From Rugalucina vietnamica (Eukaryota > Mollusca > Bivalvia > Lucinida > Lucinidae), in contig OZ024876.1 in the NCBI GenBank assembly GCA_964017185.1, positions 30,405,778-30,469,777 of the forward strand: 64,000 nucleotides of DNA, in the 5' to 3' direction. The translations under genes and the position numbers were made by a program. The notes under the pieces are model-generated. The model was given only the letters and a program-made list of their open reading frames with translations, had not been told where the DNA came from and ran no database searches. Within the stretch, counting starts at the first letter, position 1; every line of letters starts with the position of its first letter. Of this stretch, positions 902-63,715 are shown in pieces.

Positions 902-3404
902 GCTCACCTGAGCCGAAGGCTCACAGGTGAGCTTATAGGATAGGCAGGCATCCGTCGTCCGTCGTCGTCGTCCGTCGTCGTCCGTCGTCGTCGTCCGTCC
1001 ACAATTTCAAAGAAGAATATTTCTGAAGCTAGTTGGCCGATCTTGATCAAATTTAATGTGAACCATAATTGGGTTGGGGGATTGATAGCATTAGGTTTTG
1101 GAGCAGATTGTATCAAAATTGTGGTTTCCATGGCAACAGATAGGTCCCATAGACTTACAATGGGAAAAACTAAAAAAATCTTCTTCTCTGAAACCACTAG
1201 GCCCACAGCTTTGATATTTGGTATGTAGCAATGGCTAATGGTCCTCTACATAAATTGTGCCATTCATGCCCCTGGGGTCAAATTTGGCCACGCCCCGGGG
1301 GTCGATAGTCTCCATAGACTTACTATGGGAAAAAAATTAAAAAATCTTCTTCTCTGAAACCACAGGGCCCACAGCTTTGATATTTTCTATGTGGCAATGG
1401 CTAATGGTCCTCTACATAAATTGTGCCAGCCATGCCCCTGGGGTCAAATTTGGCCACGCCCCGGGGGTCGATAGTCTCCATAGACTTACAATTGGAAAAA
1501 CTAAAAAAATCTTCTTCTCTGAAACCACTAGGCCCACAGCTTCGATATTTGGTATGTAGCAATGGCTAATGGTCCTCTACATAAATTGTGCCATTCATGC
1601 CCCTGGGGTCAAATTTGGCCACGCCCCGGGGGTTGATAGTTTCCATAGACTTACTATGGGAAAAAAAATGAAAAATCTTCTTCTCTGAAACCACAGGGCC
1701 CACAGCTTTGATATTTTGTATGTGGCAATGGCTAATGGTCCTCTACATAAATTGTGCCAATCATGCCCCTGGGGTCAAATTTGGCCACGCCCCGGGGGTC
1801 GATAGTCTCCATAGACCTACAATAGGAAAAAAACTAAAAAAATCTTCTTCTCTGAAACCACTAGGCCCACAGCTTTGATATTTGGTATGTAGCAATGGCT
1901 AATGGTCCTCTACATAAATTGTGCCATTCATGCCCCTGGGGTCAAATTTGGCCACGCCCCGGGGGTTGATAGTCTCCATAGACTAACTATGGGAAAAAAA
2001 ATAAAAAATCTTCTTCTCTGAAACCACAGGGCCCACAGCTTTGATATTTTGTATGTGGCAATGGCTAATGGTCCTCTACATAAATTGTGCCAATCATGTC
2101 CCCGGGGTCAAATTTGGCCACGCCCCGGGGGTCGATAGTCTCCATAGACCTACAATAGGAAAAACTAAAAAAATCTTCTTCTCTGAAACCACTAGGCCCA
2201 CAGCTTTGATATTTGGTATGTAGCAATGGCTAATGGTCCTCTACATGAATTGTGCCATTCATGCCCCTGGGGTCAAATTTGGCCACGCCCCTGGGGTTGA
2301 TAGTCTCCATAGACTTACTATGGGAAAAAATTGAAAAATCTTCTTCTCTGAAACCACAGGGCCCACATCTTTGATATTTTGTAGGTGGCAATGGCTAATG
2401 GTCCTCTACATATATTGTGCCAGCCATGCCCCTGGGGTCAAATTTGGCCACGCCCCGGGGGCCGATAGTCTCCATAGACCTACAATAGGAAAAAAACTAA
2501 AAAAATCTTCTTCTCTGAAACCACTAGGCCAACAGCTTTGATATTTGGTATGTAGCAATGGCTAATGGTCCTCTACATAAATTGTGCCAATCATGTCCCC
2601 GGGGTCAAATTTGGCCACGCCCAGGGGGTCGATAGTCTCCATAGACCTACAATAGGAAAAACTAAAAAAATCTTCTTCTCTGAAACCACTAGGCCCACAG
2701 CTTTGATATTTGGTATGTAGCAATGGCTAATGGTTCTCTACATGAATTGTGCCATTCATGCCCCTGGGGTCAAATTTGGCCACGCCCCGGGGGTTGATAG
2801 TCTCCATAGACTTACTATGGGAAAAAAATTCAAAAATCTTCTTCTCTGAAACCACTAGGCCCACAGCTTTGATATTTGGTATGTAGCAATGGCTAATGGT
2901 CCTCTACATAAATTATGCCATTCATGCCCGTGGGGTCAAATTTGGCCAGGCCCCGGAGGTTGATAGTCTCAATAGACTTGCTATGGGAAAAAAATTCAAA
3001 AATCTTCTTCTCTGAAACCACAGGGCACACAGCTTTGATATTTTGTATGTGGCAATGGCTATTGGTCCTCTACATAAATTGTGCCAGCCATGCCCCTGGG
3101 GTCAAATTTGGCCACGCCCCGGGGGTAGATAGTCTCCATAGACTTACAATGGGAAAAACAAAGAAAAATCTTCTTCTCTGAAACCAAAAGACCCAGAGCT
3201 TCTATATTTTGTATTTAGCAATGTTTGGTAGTCCCCATTATAAATTGTGCCAGTCATGCCCCTGGGTCAAATTTGGCCATGCCCCGGGGGTCAATAGTGT
3301 CCATGCATAGACTTTCATTGGTCGATTCTCAATTAATTTAAATCTCATGAGCTTACAATGTGATAATCTCTCAGGTGAGCTACAGGACCAATGGTCCTCT
3401 AGTT
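902..3404 (+). mobile_element. Pearl-like element with 13 tandem 165-bp units (copy 1)
   Basis: It starts with AGCTCACCTGAGCC plus a small hairpin and ends with CTCAGGTGAGCT, giving short terminal inverted repeats. A CGTCGTCCGTCGTC microsatellite (about 955-1000) is followed by about 13 tandem units of about 165 bp (phase marker 'gggaaaa'/'aggaaaa' near 1159, 1326, 1493, 1658, 1827, 1990, 2157, 2322, 2487, 2653, 2818, 2985, 3150). Each unit carries 'atcttcttctctgaaacca' and 'ggggtcaaatttggccacg'. TIR, CCGT microsatellite and tandem core is the build of bivalve pearl elements (known family; assignment inferred). Short open frames inside are repeat artefacts. Confidence 0.8.
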
Positions 3405-5898
3405 AGCTCACCTGAGCCGAAGGCTCACAGGTGAGCTTATAGGATAGGCAGGCATCCGTCGTCGTACGTCGTCCGTTGTCGTCTGTCGTCGTCCGTCCAC
3501 AATTTCAAAGAAGAATATTTCTGAAGCTAGTAGGCTGATCTTGATCAAATTTAATGTGAACCATAATTGGGTTGGGGGATTGATGGCATTAGGTTTTGGA
3601 GCAGATTGTATCAAAATTGTGGTTTCTATGGCAACAGATAGGTCCCATAGACTTACAATGGGAAAAACAAAAAAAATCTTCTTCTCTGAAACCACTAGGC
3701 CCACAGCTTTGATATTTGGTATGTAGCAATGGCTAATGGTCCTCTACATAAATTGTGCCATTCATGCCCCTGGGGTCAAATTTGGCCACGCCCCGGGGGT
3801 CGATAGTCTCCATAGACTTACTATGTGAAAAAAATTAAAAAATCTTCTTCTCTGAAACCACAGGGCCCACAGCTTTGATATTTTGTATGTGGCAATGGCT
3901 AATGGTCCTCTACATAAATTATGCCAGCCATGCCCCTGGGGTCAAATTTGGCCACGCCCCGGGGGTCTATATTCTCCATAGACTTACAATTGGAAAAACT
4001 AAAAAGGTTGATCTTCTTCTCTGAAACCACTAGGCCCACACCTTTGATATTTGGTATGTAGCAATGGCTAATGGTCCTCTACATAAATTGTGCCATTCAT
4101 GCCCCTGGGGTCAAATTTGGCCACGCCCCGGCGGTTATAGACCTACAATAGGAGAAAAACTAAAAAAATCTTCTTCTCTGAAACCACTAGGCCAACAGCT
4201 TTGATATTTGGTATGTAGCAATGGCTAATGGTCCTCTACATAAATTGTGCCATTCATGCCCCTGGGGTAAAATTTGGCCACGCCCTGGGGGTTGATAGTC
4301 TCCATAGACTTACTATGGGAAAAAAATTAAAAAATCTTCTTCTCTGAAACCACAGGGCCCACAGCTTTGATATTTGGTATGTAGCAATGGCTAATGGTCC
4401 TCTACATAAATTGTGCCATTCATGCCCCTGGGGTTAAATTTGGCCAGGTCCCAGAGGTTGATAGTCTCAATAAACTCGCTATGGGAAAAAAATTCAAAAA
4501 TCTTCTTCTCTGAAACCGCAGGGCACACAGCTTTGATATTTTGTATGTGGCAATGGCTAATGGTCCTCTACATAAATTGTGCCAGCCATGCCCCTGGGGT
4601 CAAATTTGGCCACGCCCCTCGGGTCGATATTCTCCATAGACTTGCAATTGGAAAAACTAAAAAAGGTTGATCTTCTTCTCTGAAACCACTAGGCCCACAG
4701 CTTTGATATTTGGTATGTAGCAATGGCTAATGGTCCTCTACATAAATTGTGCCATTCATGCCCCTGGGGTCAAATTTGGCCACGCCCCGGCGGTTGATAG
4801 TCTCCATAGACTTACTATGGGAAAAAAATTAAAAAATCTTCTTCTCTGAAACCACTAGGCCAACAGCTTTGATATTTTGTAGGTGGCAATGGCTAATGGT
4901 CCTCTACATAAATTGTGCCAATCATGCCTCTGGGGTCAAATTTGGTCACGCCCCGGGGGTCGATAGTCTCCATAGACCTACAATAGGAAAAAAACTAAAA
5001 AAATCTTCTTCTCTGAAACCACTAGGCCAACAGCTTTGATATTTGGTATGTAGCAATGGCTAATGGTCCTCTACATAAATTGTGCCATTCATGCCCCTGG
5101 GGTCAAATTTGGCCACGCCCCGGGGGTCGATAGTCTCCATAGACCTACATTAGGAAAAACTAAAAAAATCTTCTTCTCTGAAACCACTAGGCCCACAGCC
5201 TTGTTATTTAGTATGTAGCAATGGCTAATGGTCCTCTACATAAATTGTGCCATTCATGCCCCTGGGGTCAAATTTGGCCACCCCCCGGGGGTTGATAGTC
5301 TCCATAGACTTACTATGGGAAAAAAAATAAAAAATCTTCTTCTCTGAAACCACTTGGCCCACAGCTTTTATATTTGGTATGTAGCAATGGCTAATGGTCC
5401 TCTACATAAATTGTGCCATTCATGCCCCTGGGGTCAAATTTGGCCAGGCCCCGGAGGTTGATAGTCTCAATAGACTTGCTATGGGAAAAAAATTCAAAAA
5501 TCTTCTTCTCTGAAACCACAGGGCACACAGCTTTGATATTTTGTATGTGGCAATGGCTAATGGTCCTCTACATAAATTGTGCCAGCCATGCCCCTGGGGT
5601 CAAATTTGGCCACGCCCCGGGGGTAGATAGCCTCCATAGACTTACAATGGGAAAAACTAACAAAAATCTTCTACCCTGAAACCAAAAGGCCCAGAGCTTC
5701 TATATTTTGTATGTAGCAATGTTTGGTAGTCCCCATTATAAATTGTGCCAGTCATGCCCCTGAGTCAAATTTGGCCATGCCCCAGGGGTCAATAGTGTCC
5801 ATGCATAGACTTTCATTGGTCGATTCTCAATTAATTTAAATCTCATGAGCTTACAATGTGATAATCTCTCAGGTGAGCTACAGGACCAATGGTCCTCT
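3404..5898 (+). mobile_element. Pearl-like element with 13 tandem 165-bp units (copy 2)
   Basis: Near-identical in plan to 902-3404 and directly abutting it head to tail: same AGCTCACCTGAGCC start, microsatellite, about 13 units and the same 3' end ('caatgtgataatctctcaggtgagct' block, 5850-5880). Unit order is similar but not identical; for example the unit near 4135 is shortened and 'aaaaaggttgatcttc' variants appear at 4003 and 4662. This points to a 2.5-kb tandem duplication followed by divergence or gene conversion. Confidence 0.8.
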
Positions 5899-6270: not shown

Positions 6271-6391
6271 TTTGGTTGTCCACTGGAGGTTTGTGTCTCG
6301 AATTAAGGACCAGATGGACAAGTTTATGAAAGGTTTCTGTGATCTCGTTCCACACAGCTTAATAACAATCTTTGATGAAAATGAACTGGAG
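6271..6391 (+). CDS. NEDD4: NEDD4-type HECT E3 ubiquitin ligase, exon (fourth from last)
   Basis: First visible exon of a gene that starts left of the window. After the acceptor (tctgttacag) the frame reads LVVHWRFVSRIKDQMDKFMK, then GFCDLVPHSLITIFDENELE: 40 codons plus one leading base, ending at a codon boundary before a GTTTGT donor. This is the middle of the HECT domain, where NEDD4/NEDD4L proteins have a WRFVNR...IFDENELE stretch. The HECT domain takes ubiquitin from an E2 on its catalytic cysteine and passes it to substrates, typically membrane proteins recruited through WW domains. The C2 and WW parts are not in the window. The + strand order of the four exons and their matching phases support one gene. 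NEDD4 versus NEDD4L cannot be separated here; invertebrates usually have a single Nedd4. Confidence 0.9.
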
Positions 6392-9708: not shown

Positions 9709-9816
9709 CTGTTGTTATGTGGTTTACAAGATATTGATGTGAACGATTGGAAGGATCATAGTGCTTACAAGGGAGACTATAACCCTAATCATCCTGTGAT
9801 AATTAATTTCTGGAAG
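9709..9816 (+). CDS. NEDD4: NEDD4-type HECT E3 ligase, exon (third from last)
   Basis: 36 codons in phase 0/0 reading [20 protein letters not shown] then [16 protein letters not shown], followed by a GTAAGC donor. In the HECT C-lobe, NEDD4 family members have a closely similar CGLGDVDVNDW...NHPVIQWFWK block, which makes the assignment secure. The upstream intron is almost wholly repeats (6433-9388 plus MITE-D). Confidence 0.92.
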
Positions 9817-10760: not shown

Positions 10761-10930
10761 GCTGTCTATTCACTGAACAATGAAACTCGGGCCAGGTTAC
10801 TGCAGTTTGTCACTGGGACGTCTAGAGTTCCAATGAACGGGTTCAAGGAGTTGTATGGGAGTAATGGACCTCAGCTGTTTACCATAGAAAGATGGGGAAA
10901 TCCACGACAGCTGCCCAGAGCTCACACATG
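10761..10930 (+). CDS. NEDD4: NEDD4-type HECT E3 ligase, exon (second from last)
   Basis: After an ATCTTCCTTTCAG acceptor, 56 codons plus TG. It contains [36 protein letters not shown] and LPRAHT, the hallmark run just before the catalytic cysteine of NEDD4-family HECT domains. The cysteine codon is split: TG here and T in the next exon (12144). The donor GTAGGT is at 10931. If this donor is not used the frame reads H-T-W-stop (TAG at 10932), truncating the enzyme one residue before its catalytic cysteine. The donor is the first of 12 near-identical copies. Confidence 0.95.
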
Positions 10931-11710
10931 GTAGGTTTATATGGGAAAAAAGTGTGTGTGTGTGTGGGGGGGGGGGGAATCCACGACAGCTGCCCAGAGC
11001 TCACACATGGTAGGTTTATAGGGGGAACAAAGGCAGGGGGGGGGGTGGGGTTGATCCACGACAACTGCCCAGAGCACACACATGGTAGGTTTATAGGGGT
11101 AACAAAGGCGGGGGGTGGGGGGGGGGGTGGGGGGGGGGTGATCCACGACAACTGCCCAGAGCTCACACATGGTAGGTTTATAGGGGGAACAAGTATGGGG
11201 GGGGGGATCCACGACAACTGCCCAGAGCTCTCACATGGTAGGTTTATAGGGGGAACAAAGGATGGGGTGGGTGGTGTCAGGACAACTGCCCAGAGCTCAC
11301 ACATGGTAGGTTTATAGGGGGAACAAGTATGGGGGGGGGGATCCACGACAACTGCCCAGAGCTCTCACATGGTAGGTTTATAGGGGGAACAAAGGCAGGG
11401 GGGTTGATCCATGACAACTGCCCAGAGCTCTCACATGGTAGGTTTATAGGAGGAACAAAGAAGGGGGGGGGGGGGGAATCCACGACAACTGCCTAGAACT
11501 CACACATGGTAGGTTTATAGGAAGAACAAGGGGAGGGTGGAATCCACGACAACTGCCCGGAGCTCACACATGGTACGCTTATAGGGGGAACAAAGTGTGG
11601 GTGGGAATCCATGACAACTGCCCAGAGCTCTCACATGGTAGGTTTATAGGGGGAACAAAGGATGGGGTGGGTGGTGTCAGGACAACTGCCCAGAGCTCAC
11701 ACATGGTAAG
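10897..11710 (+). repeat. 12-unit minisatellite copied from the exon/intron junction
   Basis: Each unit of 64-87 bp contains 'atccacgacaactgcccaga', GCTCACACATG|GTAGGTTTATA and a variable G-rich tail. The first 34 bp of unit 1 are the true 3' end of the NEDD4 exon. GT dinucleotides fall at 10931, 11010, 11085, 11172, 11238, 11306, 11372, 11438, 11509, 11573, 11638 and 11706. All follow ATG; ten read GTAGGT, one GTACGC (11573) and one GTAAGC (11706). G-runs at 10966-10977, 11036-11050 and 11107-11138 could form G-quadruplexes. A block repeat is seen: units 5-6 and 11-12 share the same 'gatggggtgggtggtgtcag' spacer. Proline-rich antisense and glycine-rich sense frames here are artefacts. Confidence 0.95.
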
Positions 11711-12246
<536 letters not shown>

Positions 12247-22009: not shown

Positions 22010-25000
22010 ACCCTCCCCCCCCCCCCCCCCCCCCCCGGGGGAATTTTCTGCACCATGATTTTCTGAAAGTATAGTGAAAAAGTTATCAAATCCTGTTTTC
22101 TGCCATCTAGAAGTGGAAGCATTTGCGTTTTACGCTATGTTTTATTATATGACCTGATACCATCTTTTGTATAGAAATAATGGGGGTAGGCGTAGAAAAT
22201 CGATCATACCTCTGCTGTTACTAATCCTAGACCATCGAACTTGGTCTTTTTTTGAAGCTTAGACATAGCTCTTTCATTCTATGATAAGTAATGCAAAATA
22301 TCTACTTTGCATATTCATGAATATTAATGAAAACATGAAAATGGTAGAAAATCATTAAAAACCCATAAATTAACTCATTTCAGGCCTAAACTATCGTTGT
22401 GACAAATTTATATTGCACCATTTGGACATATTTCATAAATTTATTGTAGTCATGAGCCTATGTGAAAATTATCTCATTTGTATATTCATGAATATTAATT
22501 AAAAAGTAAAAAATCCTGGAAAAATGGGTGTATACATATAGTATCATTTGTACCTGGGCTGTTGATAAACATGAAACACTAATGTGGAATCAAATGAATG
22601 CTATGGCCATGTTCTATCACCATTATACATATAATACATGTATTTAATGATATAAGGTTCATCTATTTTTTCATGAATATTAATGGAAACTAGAAATCAC
22701 AGAGAAATAATGAAAAAATGAACTGGTATACCTACAGAATGACTTGTATCTGATTATTTCTGTTAGTTTTATATTTTTTTTGTATAGAATATGATCCTGT
22801 CAATCAGTTGATACCATTTTCAGTTCTCTAGAGCTTTTGGTTGCTGAGATATTGTCAATTCTATTGGTATATTCCCTTCAATTGTCTATATTTTTTCTCT
22901 TTTATCTAAAGTTTTCTTAATTTTGGCCACAAGATAGTCAACTTTTTCCTGTATCTTATTATATAATGATATATTATGTCATATCTATCATTTGATACCA
23001 ATTTTAGCTCTCTAGGATTTTTTGTTGTTGAGATATAAACGTTTATATTGGTATACCCCCTCCATTTTTCTTTGATTTTTATCTAATATTTTAAGTTCTC
23101 ATCAATATTCAAACAACAAGAAAGTTAGATTATTTATATTTTTAATCATACAATAATAGAACATTATCATACCAATCATCTGATACCAATTTCAGCTCTC
23201 TAGAGCTTTTGGTTGCTGAGTTATTAACCTTTTCATTGGTATACCCCCTCCATTTTTCTGTGATTTTTCCCTTAAATTTAAATTTTTTATCAATATTCGA
23301 AAAACAAGAAAGTCAGAATGTTTGTGTGTCTTACCACATGGTTATAGAACATAATCCTAGCAATGATTTTATACCAATTTCAGCTCTCTAGAGCTCTTGG
23401 TCACCGAGATATTAGCAATTTTATTGGTATACCTCCTTCCTTTGGCAGTGATTTTACTGCTATAACTTATGTTTTCTTAAATATTTGAGCAACACGAAAG
23501 TAAGCTTGTTTATATGTCTTATTACATGATTGTAGAATATTGTCATAGCAATCATTTGATACTAATTTCAGCTCTCTGGGACATTGGGTTGCAGAGATAT
23601 AAACGCTTACATTGGTATACCCCCTCCGTTTTTCTTTGAGTTTTATCTAATATTAAAAGTTATCTTCAATATTTGAACAACAAAAAAGTTCAATTATTTA
23701 AATTTCTTATCACATGATTATAGAACATTATCATACCAATCATGTGATACCAATTTCAGCTTTCTAAAGCTATTGGTCACTGAGATATTAGCAATTTTAT
23801 TGGTATACCTCCTTCCTTTGGCAGTGATTTTTCTGCTATATCTTATGTTTTCATAAATATTTGAGCAACAAGAAAGTAAGCTTGTTTATATATCTTATTA
23901 CATGGTTATAGAATATTGTCAAAGAAATCATTTGATACATATTTTAGCACTCTAGGCCATTTGGTTGCTGAGATATAAACGTTTATATTGGTATACCCCC
24001 TCCATTTTTCTTTGATTTTTATCTAATATCTAAAGTTCTCATCAATATTCGAACAACAAGAAAGTTAGATTATTTATATGTCTTATCATACAATTATAGA
24101 ACATTATCTTACCAATCATTTAATACCAATTTCAACTCTCTAGAGCGATTGGTCACTGAGATATTAGCAATGTCATTGGTATACCCCCTTCCTTTGGCAG
24201 TGATTTTTCTCTTATATCTTAAGTTTTCTTAAATATTTGAGCAACAAAAAAGTCAGCTTGTTTATATATCTTATTACAAGATTATAGAATATTGTCAATG
24301 CAATCATTTGACACCAATTTCTGCTCTCTATGGCTTTTGGTTGCTGAGATATAAACATTTCTATAGGTATACCCCCTCCAATTTCTGTGATTTTTCTACT
24401 ATATTAATTATTGATTTCATCAATAGTCAAACAGCAGAAAAGTCTGATTGTAAATGTATCTTATTTCAGGGTTTTAGAATGTTATCATAGCAATCATTTT
24501 TATAAGTTTCAACTCTCTATGGCCTTTGGTTGCTGAGATATAAACATATCTGTAGGTATACCCCCTCCATTGTTCTGTGATTTTCTCTTCTATTGAAAGT
24601 TCTTATCAATATTTGAACATCAAGAAAGCCAGATTCTTTCTGTATCTTATCACATGATTATAGAACATTATCATGACAATCATTTGATACACATTTCAGC
24701 TCTCTTAGAGTTTTTGGTCACTGAGATATTAGCAATTTTGTTTGGTATAACCCTTCCTTTATCTGTTTCTTTTCTAATATCTGAACTTCTTTTTAATATC
24801 TGAGCATTAAGAAAGCCAGCTTGTTTATATATCTTATTACATGATTATAAAACATTGCCAAAGCAATCATTTGATACCTATTTCAGCTCTCTATGTCTAT
24901 CAGTAGCCAAGATACATGTGGTTATAGGGGTATACCACAATAATTCCTCTGCTTATTAGGGGTGGGGGTGATCACTCAAATGGGCATTAAAGTGATCCTC

Positions 25001-26752: not shown

Positions 26753-28003
26753 ATGGTAACTAAACTATTAGAGCCGACTTTCCAATTTATTTGTTACACT
26801 AAAACTAATGAGTCAGGGTTTCTTATAAGGAATTATTTCAAAAGAAATTGCAAATCAATAACATCTGAACTTGAAGCGATTGACTGGAATCAGGCATTAC
26901 AGAGACTTAACTTGTCAGAATCCTGGGAACTCCTTGTAGTTAAACTTATCAATCTAATAGAATCCCACATACCAGAGTGCAAGGTCAACCGAGATACTGT
27001 CAAGAAATGTCCCTACGCTAACCACGAATGCTTGACTGCAATCAAGAAAAAACACTCTAAATGGACCAAATTCCAACACTGAAAATCGGAAATTAACTAC
27101 GACCAATATAAAATAGCTAGTGCGGAACTTAGAAAAGTGAAATATCATCATGAAAAAGACCTAGCTACTAACATCAAATCTAATAGCAAACGTAAGATCC
27201 AAACTCAAAACAAAGACAACCGTAGGATAGTTACAAGGACAGGGCGGAAATATCGTTGATGACAGTCAGGAGAGGACAGGCCTATTGAACAACTACTTTG
27301 CTAGTGCTTTTCAAAAAGATGAGTCAGAGCCAATACCAAATTTTAATGATAGAAACTATGAGCAAGAATTAAGTATCATCATAATAACAACTGACAAAAT
27401 CTCAAAAGCTATAGACAGGCTAAAATGTTCCAAATCTCAGGGACCAGATAATGTCCATCCAATGTTACTAAAAGAATGTAAGGCAGCTTTATTAACACCT
27501 CTAAAGTACTTTAGAGGAACAAAACTACCGGTCATATGGAAGTCCGCACATGTATCAGCTATATTTAAATCAGGATCAAAAACAAAACCGGACAACTATC
27601 GACCAATTTCTTTCACATCAGTTCCTGGAAAACTTTTAGAAAGAATAATGAGAGATGAGATCGTCAAGCACATGTCAGAGAATAATCTTTTTGCTAAATC
27701 TCAACGTGGTTTTCTGGCTGGGAAGTCTTGTGTTACAAAGCTGTCAGAATTTCTCGAGGATGTCACAAGTGCACAAGATAAAGGCGAAGATGTCGATGTG
27801 ATCTACCTCGACCTGAGCAAGGCTTTTGATCGAGTACCTCATAAAAGGATTTTAATAAAATTGTGGGGCTATGGAATAAGGGGTAACATCCATTCTTGGA
27901 TCAAGGACTAAGCAACAGAAAACAGCAAGTTAACGTTAATTGAGCAACAGAAAACAGCAAGTTAACGTTAATGGAAAACTATCAAAATCAATCTCAGTCA
28001 CAA
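26753..28003 (+). pseudogene. Non-LTR retrotransposon reverse transcriptase, 5' part (broken)
   Basis: Two open stretches. 26753-27082 (109 aa) matches the linker before the RT domain. 27285-27911 (208 aa) holds RT motifs: KCSKSQGPDNVHPMLLKECK, FKSGSKTKPDNYRPISFTSV, QRGFLAGKSC and the catalytic-block motif YLDLSKAFDRVPH. These are typical of CR1/Jockey-group ORF2 proteins. After WIKD the frame breaks at a 32-bp tandem duplication (27909-27972), beyond which SNRKQQVNVNGKLSKSISVT continues in another frame to about 28003. The endonuclease domain is absent and stops separate the parts, so it is dead. Confidence 0.85.
27909..27972 (+). repeat. 32-bp tandem duplication causing a frameshift
   Basis: Two copies of 'agcaacagaaaacagcaagt' plus 'taacgttaat' with two flanking bases. 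A 32-bp unit is not a multiple of three, so it disrupts the RT frame. Confidence 0.9.
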
Positions 28004-36944: not shown

Positions 36945-38260
36945 TTATGTCTCCCCCCGACAGGGTCGGGAGACATATTGTTTTTCCCCGTGCGTCTGTC
37001 TGTCCGTCCGTCTGTCCGTCACAAATCGTGTCCACTCTATAACTTGAAAACCATTAAAGATTTTTCAATGAAACTTGGTACACTTGTAAATCATGACGAG
37101 ACGATGTGTCATGCACAAGAACCATAACTCTAGCTTGAGTATTTTTGGAGTTATTTCCCTTTGATTATTTTCGATACAATTTCGTGTCCGCTGTATAACT
37201 TGAAAATCGTTAAAGATTTTTCAATGAAACTTGGTACACTTGTAGACCACGACGAGACGATAAGTCATGCACAAGAACCATAACTCTGTCTTGAGTATTT
37301 TTGGAGTTATTTCCCTTTGATTATTTTCGATACAATTTCGTGTCCGCTGTATAACTTGAAAACCGTTTAAGATTTTTCAATAAAACTTGGTACACTTATT
37401 GAGCATGATCAGACGATGTGTCATGCACAAGAACTATAACTCTGGCTTGAGTATTTTATGAGTTATTTCCCTTTGATTATTTTCCATACAATTTCGTGTC
37501 CGCTTTATAACTCGAAAATCGTAAGAGTTATTTCAATGAAACTTGGTACACTTATAAAGCACGATGAGATTACGTGTCATGCTTAAGAACCATAACTCTT
37601 GCTTGCATATCTTTGGAGTAATTTCCCTTTGATTATTTTCCATACAATTTGGTGTCCGCCCTATAACTTGAAAACCGCAAGAGAAATTTCAGTGAAACTT
37701 GGTACACTTATAAAGCATTATGAGACGATGTGTCATGCACAAGAATTATAACTCTTGCTTTCATATCTTTGGAGTTATTTCCCTTTGATTATTTTTCCAT
37801 ACAATTTCATGTCCACTCTATAACTTGAAAACCATAAGAAATATTTCAATGAAACTTGGTACACTTATAAAGCATGATGAGATGATGTGTCATGCTAAAG
37901 AACCATAACTCTTGCTTGCATATCTTTGGAGTTATTTCCCTTTGATTATTTTTCATTCAATTTCGTGTCTGCTCTATAACTCAAAAACCATTAGAGATTT
38001 TTCAATGAAACATGGTACACTTATAAAGCATGATGCACAAGAATCATTACTCTTGCTTTCATATCTTTGGAGTTATTTCCCTTTGATTATTTTCCAAGCT
38101 TTTTCGTGCCCCCTCTATAACTTGAAAACCGTAAGAGATATTTCAATGAAACTTGGTACACTTATAAAACAGAATGACAGGATATGTGATGCACAAGAAC
38201 TATAACTCTTGCTTGCATATTTTGGACATGCACGTAGAAAGGGGGGAGACATCAGTTTTC
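36945..38260 (+). mobile_element. Pearl-like element in EDC3 intron 2
   Basis: Starts ATGTCTCCCCCCGACAGGGTCGGGAGACAT (a hairpin, shown in two parts: ATGTCTCCCCCCGACAGG and GTCGGGAGACAT), then TCTGTCCGTCCGTCTGTCC, then about 8 tandem units of about 155 bp ('aatgaaacttggtacactt', 'cataactcttgcttg', 'ttatttccctttgattattt'). The end GGGGGGAGACAT is inverse to the start. Same plan as the other pearl-like elements but unrelated unit sequence. Confidence 0.8.
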
Positions 38261-38289: not shown

Positions 38290-38482
38290 TTATTGTGATC
38301 ATAGAGACTAACCGTCTAAGAGGTCCTGGGTTCGATTCCCACAAGGGTCACCGCGTTGTGTCCTTGAGCAAGACACATTAACTCCCCTGAGTACTGGTTA
38401 ATACCCAGGAAGTGGTGGCTCCATCCCAACATGACTGAGAAATTGTTGACTGGGACGTTAAACCTCAATACAAATAAACTTA
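38290..38482 (+). mobile_element. tRNA-derived SINE in EDC3 intron 2
   Basis: B-box GGTTCGATTCC at 38329-38339 within a tRNA-like 'aggtcctgggttcgattccc', then a conserved body 'gagcaagacacattaactcc' and tail 'gactgggacgttaaacctca' plus 'caaataaa'. A reverse-strand partial copy is at 58645-58740. The tail lies about 35 bp before the exon 3 acceptor. Confidence 0.7.
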
Positions 38483-38518
38483 CAAAACTTTGTAGTGTAG
38501 ATGCTTATTGTTTTTCAG

Positions 38519-38830
38519 CCTCTGAAAGACACCACAGGTCAAGTGTACCACGGAAGATAGAATTCCGTAGTAAGAAACAGCAAGCAAGACAGGACTGTTT
38601 TAGTGCTCCCGTAGACTCATTTCTCGACGAATTTGATTTTGAAAAGAACCTAGCATTATTTGACAAGAAGGCAGTGTTTGAGGAGATAGAAAGTGCTCAA
38701 CCGGAGGTGGTGAAGGCGTGTGAGAAAACAGTTTCTAAATATAGATGTGATGAAAATGTGTTACAGACTGCCCCAGTTGTTTTACAGCAGATAAAAGTGC
38801 CAAACCAGTCAGGTCATAGTTATGTCACAG
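38519..38830 (+). CDS. EDC3: EDC3 exon 3 (FDF domain)
   Basis: G|CC gives Ala, then SERHHRSSVPRKIEFRSKKQ, and later SFLDEFDFEKNLALFDKKAV FEEIESAQPEVV. The FDF motif (EFDFEKNLALFDK) binds the DEAD-box helicase DDX6/Me31B in the decapping complex. It continues KYRCDENVLQ to SGHSYVTG and ends with G before GTAATA. The frame stays open past the donor into MITE-A (38845), so intron retention would add about 35 residues before a stop. Confidence 0.93.
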
Positions 38831-38844
38831 GTAATAAAGTTTAT

Positions 38845-39088
38845 GAGCCGCATCGTGAGAAAACCGGATTTTTGCCTATGCGAAAACAAAGGCGCAGATC
38901 AGCTTCGCGGTTACCGCGAAGCTGATCAGCGCCTTTGTTTTCGCTACACGGATAGTATATTTCCTCTTCTTTTTATATCCGAAATTTCAAGCTTCTAGCC
39001 TGCTTCTGTGACTGTACAGACAGTACAGGTCAGTTTGTGTCAGACATTGTCGGAAACCCCGAAGACCGGTTTTCTGGCGTCGTGGCTC
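38845..39088 (+). mobile_element. MITE-A copy 14 bp after an EDC3 donor
   Basis: Short arm first; perfect core stem ttcgcggttaccgcgaa. It begins 14 bp beyond the exon 3 splice donor. Confidence 0.85.
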
Positions 39089-39119
39089 TTATAATGAAGG
39101 TAATAAAGAAAGAAATTTC

Positions 39120-39382
39120 ATACATGAGAAAACCAACATTTTGCATATGCAAAAGCAAAGACGCAGATCAGCTTCGCAATAACCGTGAACCGCGAAGCTG
39201 ATCAGCTTTGCGGTAACTGCAAAGCTGATCAGCGTTTTTGTTTTCGCTACACGGATAGTGCAATTCCTCTACTTTCTTGATCCAAGATCTCTAGCCTCTA
39301 GCCACCTTTTGTGCATGTACAGCTCGATTTGTGTCAGACCTGTTCGGATACCACATTGTTGGTTTTTTCATGACATGGCTTA
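39120..39382 (+). mobile_element. MITE-A copy with duplicated core
   Basis: Short arm first; two core hairpins in a row: a ttcgcaataaccgtgaaccgcgaa type, then tttgcggtaactgcaaa. The two have different, each self-consistent stem sequences. Confidence 0.8.
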
Positions 39383-39438
39383 TATGGTCAAATTATCACC
39401 CACCAACTCATGCCCTTGATCTTAGGTATACATAATTT

Positions 39439-39673
39439 GAGCCGCCTTGTGGGAAAACCAACAATGTGGTTTCCGAACAGGTCCGACACAAACCGACCTG
39501 TACAAGCACAGAAAAGAGCTAGAAGCTTGAAATTTCGGATTTAAGTAGAGGAGGAATAGTACTATCCGAGTAGCGAAAACAATGGCGCTGATTAGCTTCG
39601 CGGTTACCGCGAAGCTGATCTGCGCCTTTGTTTTCGCCTATGCAGATTGTTGGTTTTCCCATGGGGTGGCTCA
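39439..39673 (-). mobile_element. MITE-A copy
   Basis: Long arm first; perfect stem ttcgcggttaccgcgaa. Inverted relative to its neighbours at 38845 and 40209 in the same intron. Confidence 0.85.
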
Positions 39674-40208
39674 TATAATGTCTTTCAATCAAAATTTACA
39701 GCATTGGATTCTCATGTGGTGGTTGGCACATGCATAAAGCTGTGATTGACTTCAGCTAATATTTTTCACTGTAGATTTTGGATTACTTGTGATGTTTCCA
39801 TTCCCTTGACATTAAATGCACTTCACTTCTGACATTCAAATGACCATATAAACTCTGTTATTCATTAACGAAAACATTAAGACTTAACTGTGGGTATTGA
39901 CTGGTATTCATTTTCTTAGTTACAATTTGGTAACAAAATTAATTGTGTTTTCAAAAAAATGTCTGTTTTGGCATTTTATCCACCTGCCTCTTAACTGGGA
40001 AAAATTCCATGTATTGTGTAAAATAATAAAAAGATTGTATGCTTATATTTTGGTAAATACCAACTATATTTCATCTTGTGTGTTAAAAACATTTAAATTT
40101 TATGCTGCACACTTGTGAAAATTCTGATGTTTTCAACACACTCAAAATATATTTGGTATTCACCTCAAAAAAGGTAAATATCTTTATGTATTAAAGCGTT
40201 AACTATAT
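39674..40208. other. EDC3 intron 3, no recognised feature
   Basis: AT-rich intron sequence between MITE-A copies. Confidence 0.4.
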
Positions 40209-40444
40209 GAGCCGCATCGTGAGAAAACCGGATTTTTGCCTATGCGAAAACAAAGGCGCAGATCAGCTTCGCGGTAACCGCGAAGCTGATCAGCGCCTTT
40301 GTTTTCGCTACTCGGATAGTACAATTCCTCTTCTACTTAAATCCGAAATTTCAAGCTTCTAGCTCTTTTCTGAGCTTGTACAGGCCGATTTGTGTCGGAC
40401 CTGGTCGGAAACCCCGAAGACCGGTTTTCTCGCGTCGCGGCTCA
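40209..40444 (+). mobile_element. MITE-A copy, near consensus
   Basis: Short arm first; perfect stem ttcgcggtaaccgcgaa and TIRs GAGCCGCATCGTGAGAAAACC / GGTTTTCTCGCGTCGCGGCTC. Flanks ctatat / atatag. A good type sequence for the family. Confidence 0.9.
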
Positions 40445-40495
40445 TATAGGTGGGGTGTGTTTAAATGAAAATATAATTACTAAAAAAACTTTCAG

Positions 40496-40649
40496 ATTCT
40501 GGTTTGGTGGTTCCCAGTATAGATTATGACCTTAGGAATCGCCTGTTTGTGGCCGGAGAGCAATACGGCTTCTCTGTTGAGAGGCGGCTAGAGATGATTG
40601 GTAGATCGTCCAGTGAAATGGTGCTGCAGCTCATAGGGGGTAGCAGTCG
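40496..40649 (+). CDS. EDC3: EDC3 exon 4 (start of YjeF_N domain)
   Basis: G|AT gives Asp, then SGLVVPSIDYDLRNRLFVAG EQYGFSVERRLEMIGRSSSE MVLQLIGGSS, ending CG before GTAAGT. This is the first part of the C-terminal YjeF_N (Rossmann-like) domain, which mediates EDC3 dimerisation and may bind RNA or nucleotide. It sits 51 bp after a MITE-A copy. Confidence 0.93.
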
Positions 40650-40704
40650 GTAAGTAAAAAATTTAATGATTAATGGACAGAACACAAACAGCCCTGAAAT
40701 ATTT

Positions 40705-40919
40705 GAGCCGCATAATGAGAAAAACAGATTTCTTCATATGCAAAAACAAAGGCGCAGATCGGCTTTGCAGTAACTGCTCATCTGATCAGCACCTTTGTTT
40801 TCGCTACATGAATAATACAGTTCCTCTTCTATTTGACATGTGTATGTATATGTAATTTCAAGCATTTTGCCTTCTTCTGAGACTATACCGGAAGACCGGT
40901 TTTCTCTGGTTGCCGCTCA
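40705..40919 (+). mobile_element. MITE-A copy
   Basis: Short arm first; core degraded on the right (ggctttgcagtaactgctca), and the long arm has an internal deletion. Confidence 0.75.
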
Positions 40920-41158
40920 TTTGTTTCATGTAAGTTCATATAATACTGTTATGGAGCGAACCACGGTGGTTGTGTGATGGAGAACCCTTGTTAGTCTGAT
41001 ATGTTTATTTGAGAAAAATTAAAGCCGTAATAGCCATTTGGGTTTGCAAAGACCAAAAATAAATCATATCAATTTTTTTATGATAATTTAAAACCAAAAA
41101 GGTCAGATGCACTGTCTGACAGCTGAGAAATATACAGTATGCTCTGTATTTGAGATTT

Positions 41159-41398
41159 GAGCCGCCGCATCAGAAAACCAACAATCTGCATAGGCGAAAA
41201 TAAAGGTGCAGATCAGCTGTGCAGTAACTGCACAGCTGATCAGCGCCTTTGTTTTTGCTACACATATACATGTAGTGCAATCCCTTTTCTTCTTAATTAG
41301 AAATTTCAAGCTTCTAACCTGCTTCTTTGACTGTTCAAGCCGGTTGGTGTCGGACCTGTTCGGAAACTGCATTGTTGGCTTTCTCGCGTTGTGGCTCA
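41159..41398 (+). mobile_element. MITE-A copy
   Basis: Short arm first; perfect stem tgtgcagtaactgcaca; 64 bp before the exon 5 acceptor. Confidence 0.85.
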
Positions 41399-41462
41399 TT
41401 TGTAGGGTACATCAACAGAAATAGGTTTCACTGGCTTAAGAGTTTGTTTTTTTTCCACACAG

Positions 41463-41680
41463 GTTGAACCCTCAAAACGGTCACCAACTGCCAACAATTG
41501 TTGTCCTGTGTGGCCCCCACATTCAGGGGGCTCAGGGTCTGAACTGTGCTCGTCATCTAGTCAACCATGGCGTGAAGACTATTGTGTTCCTACCCAACTT
41601 CATTAGGATGGTACAGTCGGTGGAGCAAGAACTCAAGCTGTATGAAATGTGTGGTGGGAAGAGATATTCTAATGTGCAAG
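41463..41680 (+). CDS. EDC3: EDC3 exon 5 (YjeF_N domain)
   Basis: Acceptor tttccacacag; CG|G gives Arg, then LNPQNGHQLPTIVVLCGPHI QGAQGLNCARHLVNHGVKTI VFLPNFIRMVQSVEQELKLY, ending G before GTAGCG. IVVLCGPHIQGAQG is the glycine-containing loop after the first strand of the Rossmann-like fold, as in other EDC3 proteins. Confidence 0.94.
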
Positions 41681-41696
41681 GTAGCGTATTGACCTT

Positions 41697-41832
41697 TTTT
41701 GCATTATTGGCTGGTTTCCAGCTTCCAAAAAATCGATATTGGAAATACAGGTAACCAGAACCACCCTGACCTTGAGGTTACCTGTATTTCCAATATTGAT
41801 TTTTGTGTGCTGGAAACCAGCCTATAATGCAA
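41697..41832. mobile_element. Fold-back element, 59-bp stem, in EDC3 intron 5
   Basis: Left arm ttttgcattattggctggtt ... ggaaatacaggtaacc and right arm ggttacctgtatttcc ... aaccagcctataatgcaaaa pair over about 59 bp with about five mismatches around a 19-nt loop. It starts about 15 bp after the exon 5 donor. Confidence 0.8.
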
Positions 41833-42266
41833 AAATGGTGAATAGTAAGTCTTTAGAAAGAGGCATAAGTTGTTGATGTTTGTTTTAGTCTTTATTGGCA
41901 CAAAAAAAGTGACCTCTTCGGACCAGGATTGACACAAATTGGCCTGCATACTGCATAGCCACTGGGGATATCTAGAAGTTTTGCTGGTAGAAGTAGAGGG
42001 GTTTTACCTCTGTTGTACTTGTCATGTCTGTAATTAGTTGATCTAGCCGGATGGCTACCTTGTTTAGAAAGAGCTAGTCACCTTGCTCTACATTGGGTTG
42101 TGGTATTTTTGTGGTGGTCTTTGCTGTGCTTTCTATCCCACCCTGGGGTTGGGATTTTAAATTTGATTACAATCCCTGTGCCTTTTTTCCTACTTTAACC
42201 AGGTGAGCTTTAATTATAATGCTGCTGATCTGCATCTTTATATTCACATATTTATTTATTTTGTAG
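41833..42266. other. EDC3 intron 5, remainder
   Basis: Contains words resembling degraded MITE-A (ttcggaccaggattgacaca, 41918-41940) but no clear element. Confidence 0.35.
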
Positions 42267-42598
42267 ATATTCCAAATTGTTCAATAGATATGATAATCAA
42301 CTGTATGGACAGCCATGAGAACTCTGTGCTTCAAGAACAGACCTGGTACCAAGCACATATAAAATGGGCAACAGAAAACCGGGCACAAGTATTCGCAATT
42401 GATCCACCGATGGAAAATGTCCCAATTCAGCCAAAATGGTGTTTATGGCCTTGCTTGCCCCTGGATATGGTGAAAAATTCTGCTCAGGCTTATCTCTGTG
42501 ATCTAGGACTGCCGAAAAAGGTTTTTAAAGATGTGGGAATCACATACAAGTCGCCATTTAGCCACAAGTTTATCATACCACTGTATCAGAAAAGATGA
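42267..42598 (+). CDS. EDC3: EDC3 exon 6 (end of YjeF_N domain), stop TGA
   Basis: Acceptor tattttgtag; G|AT gives Asp, then IPNCSIDMIINCMDSHENSV, later WATENRAQVFAIDPPMENVP, then the end YKSPFSHKFIIPLYQKR and TGA at 42596-42598. The closing block (NCxD, ...IDPP..., YLCDLGLPKKVF, YKSPF..KFIIPL) is the conserved YjeF_N C-terminus of EDC3, so the gene is complete at its 3' end. Confidence 0.95.
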
Positions 42599-56415: not shown

Positions 56416-58441
56416 AGCTCGACTGCACGAAGTGCATAGAGCTATTGCAGTCACCCCGGTCGTCCACGTTCCCGTTCCCGTTCCCGTGCGCGTGCGCGTG
56501 CGCGTCACACTTGCGTTAAAGTTTTCTAGAAGTCCATATCTTGAGAACCACTCATCAGAAAGCATTCATACTTGGACCATAGATACCCTGTAGGGTTAGC
56601 TTTCATTCCATGGCATCGGGCCCCTGGGTCCAGGCCAGGGGGTGGGGCTGGAGGTTAAAATCTAGAACACCTTCAAAAATGGCAATTCTTGTGTTAAAGT
56701 TTTCTAGAAGTCCATATCTTGACAACCACTCATCAGAAAGCATTGATACTTGGGCCATTGACACCCTGTAGGGTCGGCTTTCATTCCATGGCATCAGATC
56801 CCTGGGTCCATGCCAGGGGGTGGGGCTAGAGGTTAAAATCTAGAACACCATTAATAATAATGGCTTTTCTGTGATATAGTATTCTAGAAGTCTATATCTT
56901 GAAAACTTTTTATCAGAGGGCTTTCATACTCGGACCATAGGTACCCTGTAGGGTTGAGTTTCATTGCATGGCATCGGATCTCTGGGTCCATGCCTGGGGG
57001 GTGGGGCTGGAGGTTAAAAACTAGAACACTGTAAAAAATAGATGTACTGCTGTGTAACTTTAACAAGGAGTCCATATCTTGACAACAACTTATCATAAAG
57101 CATTCATACTTCATACACTTTAGGTTCCATGACGTCGGACCTCTGGGTCGGAGTCAGGGGGGTGGGGCTAGAGGTCAAAATCTAGAACTCCCCGAATTTT
57201 TTTTCTTTTTATTTCTTAATAGAAACAACTTAGGAAGATGGTTGGTCATTCATCTTTTGACTTTGTGACACTGACTTGTGTGTCATGACGGTAAGGGTCG
57301 GTTGACCTACTTTCCATGGTTCAGTGATTTTGCCTTATATCTTGACACTCAGTTAGTATATTTTCTTACTTCTTTCAGATTATGAGTGAGTACGACCAGG
57401 CCTTTGACCCCAATATACTTATAGGTCACTGTGACCTAATTTCACGGTTCAGTGATTTTGCCTTATATCTTGACACTCAATTAGTATATTTTCATACTTT
57501 TTTCAGATTATGAGTATGACCAGACCTTTGACCCCAATATACTTATAGGTCACTGTGACCTAATTTCACGGTTCAGTGATTTTGCCTTATATCTCAGTAC
57601 CCAAATGGTTTATGAACAAACTTCTTTCAAAGTATGTTTGCATATGACAAGACCTTTGACCCTGAAGTAGTCCTAGGTCACTGTGACCTAATTTCACGGT
57701 TCAGTGATTTTGCCTTATATCTTGACACTCAATTAGTATATTTTCATACTTTTTTAGATTATGAGTGAGTATGACCAGACCTTTGACCCCAATATACTTA
57801 TAGGTCACTGTGACCTAATTTCACGGTTCAGTGACTTTGCCTTGTATCTCGGCACTCAAGTGGTTTATGAACAAACTTCTTTCACACTATATTTGCGTAT
57901 GACAAGACCTTTGACCCTAAAGTAGTCCTAGGTCAATATGACCTAATTTCACGGTTCAGTGATTTTGCCTTATATCTCGACACTCAGTTGGTATTTTTTC
58001 ATACTTCTTTCTGATTATGAATGAGTATGACCAGACCTTTAACCCAAGCATACTTATAGGTCACTGTGACCTAATTTCATGGTTCAGTGATTTTGCTTTA
58101 TATCTCAACACTGAATGGGTATATGATCATATTTCTTTCACATTATGAGTAAGTATCACTAGACCTTTGACCCTGAAATACTTATAGGTCAGTGTGACCT
58201 TATTTCACGGTTCAGTGATTTTGCCTTGTGTCTTGGCACTCAGTTGGTATATGAACACACTATAACTATAACTATAAATCTTAGGTAGTTATAGTTAACT
58301 TTGATGGTTCAGTGATTTTGTCTTATTGCATCAAGGCAAAAAGATGTATGAGCATAATGCTTTGGGTTACTGGTCGGGTTTGGCCTTATGTTTGACAAAG
58401 ATCAGAAGCAGTTGAGCACGCTGTCCTGCGACAGCTCTTAT
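56416..58441 (+). mobile_element. Pearl-like element with two different tandem arrays
   Basis: Starts AGCTCGACTGCACGAAGTGC (hairpin with 'gcatagagct'), then a CGTTCCCGTTCCCG/GTGCGC microsatellite (56467-56505). Four units of about 180 bp follow (56510-57190; 'ttctagaagtccatatcttg', 'ggtggggctggaggttaaaa'), then about eight units of about 127 bp (57270-58265; 'tttcacggttcagtgatttt', 'agacctttgaccc'). It ends 'cctgcgacagctctt'. Seven units carry AGGTCAnnnTGACCT palindromes. No coding frame. Confidence 0.8.
57423..58200. promoter_or_regulatory. Seven perfect ERE-type palindromes, one per tandem unit
   Basis: AGGTCAnnnTGACCT at 57423, 57547, 57675, 57802, 57930, 58058 and 58186 (spacers ctg, ctg, ctg, ctg, ata, ctg, gtg), 124-128 bp apart. 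This equals the consensus oestrogen response element (inverted repeat with 3-bp spacer). Binding in the animal is not shown. Confidence 0.85.
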
Positions 58442-61049: not shown

Positions 61050-62264
61050 TATCGCACCTGCTTATAGCAGGGTGCGATATAGGAGTCCAAATTTCTGTCC
61101 GTCCGTTCGTTCGTTCGTTCGTCCGTCCGTTCGTCCGTCCGTCTGTCCGTCAACATTTACGTCGAAGTTTGGTTTTCTCGACATCAGAGATAGCTGCGAG
61201 TCTGAAACCTTGCATAGTAATTGTCCCTGACATACCCTTCAAGCACGCACCTTAACCCGGTGGCTTTGACCTATATTTCATGGTCCACTGACTTCGAAAA
61301 TTTTTATGTCGAAGTTTTGTCAACATTTACGTCGAAGTTTGGTTTTCTTGACATCAGAGATAGCTGCGAGTCTGAAACCTTGCATAGTAATTGTCCTTGA
61401 CATACCCTTCAAGCACGCACCTTAATGCGGTGCCCTTGACCTATATTTCATGGTCCACTGACTTTGAAAATTTTTACGTCGAAGTTTGGTTTTCTCGACA
61501 TCAGAGATAGCTGCGAGTCTGAAACCTTGCATAGTAATTGTCCTTGACATACCCTTCAAGCACGCACCTGAACCCGGTGCCCTTGACCTATATTTCACGG
61601 TCCACTAACTTTGATAATTTTTACGTCAAAGTTTGGTTTTCTTGACATCAGAGATAGCTGCAAGTCTGAAACCTTGCATAGTAATTGTCCTTGACATACC
61701 CTTCAAGCACGCACCTTAACCCGGTGCCCTTGACCTATATTTCACCGGTGCCCTTGACCTATATTTCACGGTCCACTGACTTTGAAATTTTTTACGTCAA
61801 AGTTTGGTTTTCTCGACATCAGAGATAGCTGCGAATCTGAAACCTTGCATAGTAATTGTCCTTGACATTCCCTTAAAGCACGCACCTTAACCCGGTGCCC
61901 TTGACCTATATTTCACGGTCCACTAACTTTGATAATTTTTACGTCGAAGTTTGGTTTTCTTGACATCAGAGATAGCTGCAAGTCTGAAACCTTGCATAGT
62001 AATTGTCCTTGACATACCCTTCAAGCACGCACCTTAACCCGGTGCCCTTGACCTATATTTCACAGTGCACTGACTTTGAAATTTTTTACGTCGAAGTTTG
62101 GTTTTCTCGACATCAGAGATAGCTGCGAATCTGAAACATTGCATAGTAATTGTCCTTGACATGCCCTTCAAGCACGCACCTTGACCCGGTGCCCTTGAAC
62201 TATATTTCACGGTCTGTTGACTTTGCCCGATGCAGGTGCGATATCGACCTCCGCGGAGTTCTTG
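61050..62264 (+). mobile_element. Pearl-like element, 7 units
   Basis: Start TATCGCACCTGCTTATAGCA (hairpin with 'gggtgcgata'), CCGT/TCGT microsatellite at 61097-61152, seven units of about 150 bp ('aaccttgcatagtaattgtc' near 61206, 61376, 61525, 61672, 61841, 61989, 62136), end 'gatgcaggtgcgatatcgac' with TIR GCAGGTGCGATA. Confidence 0.85.
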
Positions 62265-62821: not shown

Positions 62822-63715
62822 TATCGCACCTGCTTATAGCAGGGTGCGATATAGGAGTTCAAATTTCCGTCCGTCCGTACGTTCGTTAGTTCGTTCGTTC
62901 GTCCGTTCGTTCGTCCGTCAACATTTACGTCGAAGTTTAGTTTTCTCGACATCAGAGATAGCTGCGAGTCTGAAACCTTGCATAGTAATTGTCCCTGACA
63001 TACCCTTCAAGCACGCACCTTAACCCGGTGCCCTTGACCTATATTTCATGGTCCACTGACTTTGAAAATTTTTACGTCGAAGTTTTGTCAACATTTACGT
63101 CGAAGTTTGGTTTTCTCGCCATCAGAGATAGCTGCGAGTCTGAAACCTTGCATAGTAATTGTCCTTGACATACCCTTCAAGCACGCACCTTAACCCAGTG
63201 CCCTTGACCTATATTTCACGGTCCACTGACTTTGAAAATTTTTACGTCGAAGTTTGGTTTTCTCGCCATCAGAGATAGCTGCGAGTCTGAAACCTTGCAT
63301 AGTAATTGTCCTTGACATACCCTTCAAGCACGCACCTTGACCCGGTGCCCTTGACCTATATTTCACGGTCCACTGACTTTGAAAATTTTTACGTCGAAGT
63401 TTGGTTTTCTCGCCATCAGAGATAGCTGCAAGTCTGAAACCTTGCATAGTAATTGTCCTTGACATACCCTTCAAGCACGCACCTTAACCCGGTGCCCTTG
63501 ACCTATATTTCATGGTCCACTGACTTTGAAAATTTTTACGTCGAAGTTTGGTTTTCTCAACATCAGAGATAGCTGCGAGTCTGAAACCTTGCATAGCAAT
63601 TGTCCTTGACATGCCCTTCAAGCACGCACCTTGACCCGGTGCCCTTGAACTATATTTCATGGTCTATTTACTTTGCCCGATGCAGGTGCGATATCGACCT
63701 CCGCGGAGTTCTTGT
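62822..63715 (+). mobile_element. Pearl-like element, 5 units
   Basis: Same family and direction as 61050-62264 with five units (near 62974, 63143, 63292, 63440, 63589) and microsatellite 62870-62920. Ends 'cctccgcggagttcttgt', identical to the other copy. Confidence 0.85.

Follow-up and report, generated by a model that had tools for sequence, protein, structure and literature searches.

A mirage is a minisatellite that lies across an exon-intron boundary, and the term comes from the Adh3 and globin genes of amphioxus (PMC3087553). What we state about this and the other published systems refers to those parts of each paper that were available to us. The Adh3 mirages, as cited in that paper, have units of 10-72 bp and show somatic instability, and the mirage of BflGb6 differs between haplotypes, which carry 6 and 3 repeat units. 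The Adh3 data and RT-PCR of globin transcripts were said there to suggest that regular splicing is not interfered with (PMC3087553). Similarly, the Adh and TnC mirages of amphioxus were said not to yield aberrant mRNAs in a paper that also describes repeats at the splice sites of PGBD5 (PMC3902484). Repeats that vary and lie at exon-intron boundaries have been reported to lead to alternative splicing patterns in human genes (PMC2812944). Within the open-licence literature that we searched, we recognised no mirages under that name outside amphioxus and found no work on duplicated donors.

We analyzed a window of 64,000 nucleotides (C8:30405778-30469777) from the 1.09-Gb, 47-contig assembly of Rugalucina vietnamica. 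It contains an array in a NEDD4-like gene that resembles the amphioxus mirages (Adh3, BflGb6, BflGb9, TnC and PGBD5), as far as those are described in the available text: tandem copies span the boundary, splice signals are often kept, and the inner copies are homogenised while those at the edges are distinct. The unit length falls in the same range (64-87 bp here, 10-72 bp in Adh3 and approximately 150-160 bp in the globins). The array differs in that it lies in another gene, has G-rich spacers and reaches 12 copies, compared with 6 and 3 in the haplotypes of BflGb6. The amphioxus work included tests of splicing and of length polymorphism. Alternative transcripts and new introns were reported for human duplicated genes, in which minisatellites also lie at exon-intron boundaries (PMC2812944), whereas the array described here is known from DNA alone, namely from the sequence of one assembly.

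Two further systems are more distant. The TSSK1-like gene of abalone carries a molluscan intronic minisatellite whose repeat number varies between individuals (PMC6905558); its unit is 27 bp and, unlike the present array, it is not stated in the available part of that paper to span an exon boundary. Intron gain by a tandem duplication bearing AGGT was described for potato RdRp (PMC4974935, available in part). Exonic sequence and splice signals were duplicated there, as here, but the present array enlarges an existing intron and we saw no intron gain.

Anatomy of the array in the NEDD4-like gene

On its plus strand, the window carries four placed exons from the 3' part of a HECT gene of the NEDD4-like type; the gene's 5' part may lie beyond the window. 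The features are given below in window coordinates, with a slash marking the exon-intron junction.

6272-6390 (bounds approximate), plus strand: HECT exon (RFVSRIKDQMDKFMKGF...DENELE), HECT profile match at C8:30412046-30412177, no local copies
9709-9816, plus strand: HECT exon (...INFWK), donor AAG/GTAAGC, no local copies
10761-10930, plus strand: penultimate coding exon, 170 nt, its last two bases TG beginning the catalytic cysteine codon
about 10893-11708, plus strand: mirage array, 12 copies of exon end and donor with 11 G-rich intron-like spacers
10931-10932, plus strand: GT of the authentic donor, which is copy 1, ATG/GTAGGT; joined to 12144 it gives HTCFNR
11021-11050 and 11096-11138, plus strand: two G-quadruplex-type motifs on the RNA-sense strand, two of the three plus-strand motifs in the window
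11706-11707, plus strand: GT of the twelfth copy (ATG/GTAAGC), after which the repeat stops
12144-12246, plus strand: last coding exon, 103 nt, first base T, preceded by TTTTCAG

The last three exons, when joined, matched Pfam HECT and aligned with human NEDD4L over 126 amino acids (E 3e-65), with 95/126 residues identical (75%). The C-lobe carries the LPRAHTCFNR catalytic motif and a tail of the NEDD4 type, as expected of a NEDD4/NEDD4L HECT ligase. These three exons are open, and the gene looks intact where it was read. A search of the genome's own DNA with the exon at 10761 found this locus only. Joining exon 10761-10930 to exon 12144-12246 gave a reading that ends in GFEGVD and a stop, with TG/T at the cysteine. 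The intron therefore splits the catalytic cysteine codon, since one exon ends in TG and the next starts with T, and on this point we agree with the first-pass annotation of the sequence. The exons of two HECT paralogues, at C7:42518126 and C4:50656566, end in AHT-TG/GTATGT and AHT-TG/GTAA, respectively. Judged from these upstream exons, both paralogues appear to be broken at the same cysteine codon, and therefore the intron position is probably older than the array.

Directly after exon 10761-10930 stands GTAGGTTT. The copied unit comprises the last approximately 35 bp of this exon plus the donor, and the successive copies are spaced by 79, 75, 87, 66, 68, 66, 66, 71, 64, 65 and 68 bp. We found 12 matches to the exon-end 18-mer in the window at no more than 3 mismatches, while 0.04 were expected by chance, which excludes a chance origin of the copies. 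Copy mapping and this count confirmed the annotated array of 12 units at intervals of 64-87 bp. The near-identity of the donors was also borne out: GT was kept in 12/12 copies and one donor 9-mer, ATGGTAGGT, was common to 10/12, the exceptions being copy 10 (GTACGC) and copy 12 (GTAAGC). CAG precedes the donor in most units, and CCCAG was present in 10/12 copies.

Two pairs of units are identical, 4 with 6 (66 bp) and 5 with 11 (68 bp), and exact repeats of 115 and 96 bp occur inside the array. Most copies nevertheless have private differences. The edges stand apart from the interior, as judged by comparing the units without a tree: CAGCTG of the exon occurs only in copies 1 and 2 and is replaced by CAACTG in copies 3-12, and copy 12 alone runs into unrelated intron, where the repeat ends abruptly. 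Such a pattern is that expected of slippage or unequal exchange from which the edges are exempt. Tandem copies thus extend from exon into intron over a splice junction, the splice signal is retained in every copy, and inner copies are homogenised; by these sequence features the array is a mirage.

The spacers are rich in guanine. The longest G runs reach 14, and overlapping GGG was counted 108 times in 778 bp of the array, compared with 4 times in the remaining 435 bp of the intron. A possible seed of the array was noticed by reading the sequence, as ATGGGGAAA of the exon at 10892 resembles ATGGGAAAA of the intron at 10941. We also considered a dispersed repeat as the source of the unit. This was rejected, as a 162-bp piece of the array matched this array only in the 1.09-Gb assembly, in a search that skips very common words and limits the rejection accordingly.

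Local copying elsewhere in the genome

We surveyed local copying around 64 HECT exon matches and 30 of 91 myosin head matches, namely those with excised loci. Omission of two matches that exceeded 450 bp (C11:29658862 and C4:39561671) left 92. Partial copies on the same strand were sought with 24-mers, allowing no more than 4 mismatches, in the match's own flanks up to 1.5 kb. As a control, exons were set in the flanks of other loci in three random pairings, with pairs from the same chromosome skipped. The sample is small and covers two families; it consists of profile matches, some of which overrun the true exon edge, and not of annotated exons. Within it, a same-strand partial copy was present in the own flanks of 19/92 exon matches and in 4/242 foreign flanks (Fisher p = 2e-8). 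Inverted copies were found for 1/92. A round of the survey on the HECT matches alone gave 15/64.

Copies spanning a splice junction, as judged by eye, were present at 12/92 matches with the window included, and at 11/91 without it. The loci with copies were assigned as follows.

Donor-side junction copies: the window, L026, L016, L044, L048, L030 (weak) and L068
Junction copies on both sides: L057
Acceptor-side junction copies: L012, L038 (twice) and L079
Copies excluded as ends of last coding exons: L015 and L023
Copies excluded as short or exon-internal: L040, L045, L058 and L059
Copy excluded as lying outside the exon: L051

The HECT and myosin exons at L044, L048, L068, L016, L057, L030, L012, L038 and L079 have 1-4 extra copies each. 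The largest case besides the window is L026 (C1:78403803-78406955; 1552-2601), a second large mirage at a HECT exon of a gene that we take to be HERC-like. The last approximately 100 bp of this exon and its donor, GGATAG/GTATGT, are repeated about nine more times at a spacing near 103. GT was kept in 8/9 copies examined, and the sequence is unlike that of the array in the window.

We compared these frequencies with those for intronic intervals of like length (no more than 200 bp), of which two were taken per locus and which are hence non-independent. Two more HECT matches with short flanks were dropped from this comparison, leaving 90. Local copies within 600 bp were observed for 45/180 intronic intervals and for 18/90 exon matches (p = 0.45). 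When only loci whose exon has no copy were considered, 37/144 intronic intervals had local copies (p = 0.35). Copying specific to exons was not supported, as intronic intervals had local copies about as often. Exons were hit about as often as introns in this small sample, and the NEDD4-like array is one of many. Because copying across boundaries recurs and introns are copied similarly often, the array in this gene calls for no special cause. Outside the 92, we checked a few EDC3-like exons and other NEDD4-like exons, and local exon copies were absent in 7/7.

Donor choice and explanations for the array

We scored donors between 10761 and 12140 with approximate position weight matrix values and an approximate U1 5' end. 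On this scale, 12 sites reached the score of the true donor or more, namely that donor, 10 of the 11 further copies and a stronger site at 11891, which is unrelated. After 500 dinucleotide shuffles of the intron, the mean number of such sites was 1.8 and the largest was 8. Copies 2-9 and 11, that is nine of the other 11, share the identical 9-mer of the true donor. Of the remaining two, copy 10 scored lower, and copy 12 came close to the first donor, slightly above it by the matrix and slightly below it by U1 pairing. The site at 11891, a candidate donor CCG/GTAAGT in the same intron but beyond the array, outscores the authentic donor.

Neither property that we considered as a reason for use of the first donor distinguished it: the 9-mer scores do not single it out, and predicted RNA accessibility does not favour it. 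Varying cells in the donor columns (2/99) were not significantly fewer than in the rest of the unit (17/396, p = 0.39). The exon would measure 170 nt when ended at the first donor and 249-945 nt when ended at the others. If the first donor is used, it is probably chosen by position, as it gives the 170-nt exon and is transcribed first.

The predicted consequence of missing the first donor is an immediate stop. The frame then reads TGG TAG, with the stop at 10932-10934, and the annotated claim that use of any downstream donor keeps this TAG in frame was therefore correct. With any of the downstream donors, 75-771 nt would separate the stop from the junction that follows it. In vertebrates, nonsense-mediated decay (NMD) follows a 50-nt rule. 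The paralogue at C4:50656566 also reads TGG-stop, and no local exon copies were detected there by the survey. The immediate stop is generic, because a phase-2 intron that starts with GTAA or GTAG after TG reads TGG-stop.

We consider it highly probable (approximately 0.8) that the array is a passenger mirage, that is, a minisatellite that grew by slippage, whose extra donors are neutral and in which the first donor does nearly all of the splicing. A small tandem duplication would have taken in approximately 35 bp of the exon end, the donor and the start of the intron, and would then have grown to 12 units by slippage and unequal copying. This would have happened in a genome whose sequence is often duplicated locally in tandem, and in which exons appear to be touched about as often as introns, as suggested by our small survey. 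The extra donors would be passengers and the array would be removed as intron. The first donor, which gives the 170-nt exon and the intact cysteine codon, is the most likely site of nearly all splicing, and the array most likely leaves splicing unchanged. The copying inside the array with its distinct edges, the recurrence of such copies elsewhere and at a similar rate in introns, the large share of the window taken up by tandem arrays, the intact look of the gene and the published reports of undisturbed splicing in mirages speak for this reading. Against it, the first donor is favoured neither by its 9-mer, which ten donors share, nor by predicted accessibility, and G runs are frequent in the array.

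The first-pass annotation proposed that the choice of donor or the length of the array could tune the amount of active ligase. The 11 downstream donors would compete with the first one for U1, and the G runs would help them; in mammals, such runs can influence 5' splice sites. The fraction of transcripts that stop at the TAG at 10932 would be degraded or would yield a ligase lacking the cysteine, and this fraction would rise with array length. We think this unlikely. It gains from the scores of the extra donors, of which 10/11 equal or exceed that of the true donor, from the distance of 75-771 nt between stop and junction, which would suit NMD, and from the report that variable boundary repeats change splicing in human paralogues (PMC2812944, in the part available). 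However, similar junction copies recur in unrelated genes, no constraint on the donor columns was detected (2/99 vs 17/396 cells), and the immediate stop occurs in a paralogue too. In addition, the amphioxus mirages are described, in the available parts of the papers, as free of aberrant mRNAs for Adh and TnC (PMC3902484) and of splicing interference for Adh3 and the globins (PMC3087553). Such tuning is thus not supported by our results.

The remaining two explanations concern the array itself. It may have been assembled wrongly, so that its real length differs in either direction from the assembled one or its copies are mis-joined. Arrays with G runs of up to 14 are hard to sequence, and the draft mirage of BflGb6 haplotype 1 appeared to be aberrantly assembled (PMC3087553, available in part). 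On the other hand, most of the copies have private differences, the array lies inside a 63.7-Mb contig, and other exons have arrays that differ from it in sequence. We judge such an error very unlikely as an explanation; the number of copies could be wrong, but it is improbable that the array itself is an artefact. The array could also be a step towards a new exon or intron, with one copy recruited as an exon or helping to create an intron. A model of this kind has been published for the amphioxus globins (PMC3087553, available in part), and CAG precedes the donor in most units (CCCAG in 10/12). The acceptor-like sites of the array, however, have no pyrimidine tract, as judged by reading, and the intron position is probably not new, given that the same codon seems to be interrupted in the two paralogues. 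This makes such a step extremely improbable in our opinion.

Wider meaning and other features of the window

Mirages have been described gene by gene in amphioxus, as far as the available text shows, and the same structure recurs in the genome analyzed here. The count of 12/92 surveyed exon matches is a first rough frequency of duplicated splice junctions and the part that we consider worth following. These arrays let one ask, in a natural setting, how the spliceosome chooses among many neighbouring donors of identical sequence and how tandem duplication provides material from which new introns and isoforms can arise. The NEDD4-like array is a clean case, because ten donors share a 9-mer and active enzyme is expected from the first one alone. 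A far-reaching version would hold that the genome often duplicates splice junctions (approximately 1/8 of surveyed exons), that functional donors or acceptors stand in expandable arrays in many of its genes, and that in genes like NEDD4, in which each extra donor would lead to a dead product, array length sets a heritable, perhaps somatically variable, leak of inactive transcripts. We find this version doubtful and would be surprised if it held.

Several other features were observed in the window. Exons of an mRNA-decapping gene, which we take to be EDC3-like, lie at 38470-42580 and matched FDF (2.4e-7) and YjeF_N (1.4e-11), while a third piece had no Pfam match. An open frame at 27231-27911 matched the RVT_1 reverse transcriptase (1e-14) and is a piece of a retrotransposon. 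Tandem arrays with a period of at least 30 bp occupy 12,960 of the 64,000 bases of the window. Long arrays are located at 1139-5802, 22783-24893, 37026-38226, 56510-57111, 57303-58261, 61149-62214 and 62917-63675, and most of their periods are about 128-188 bp.
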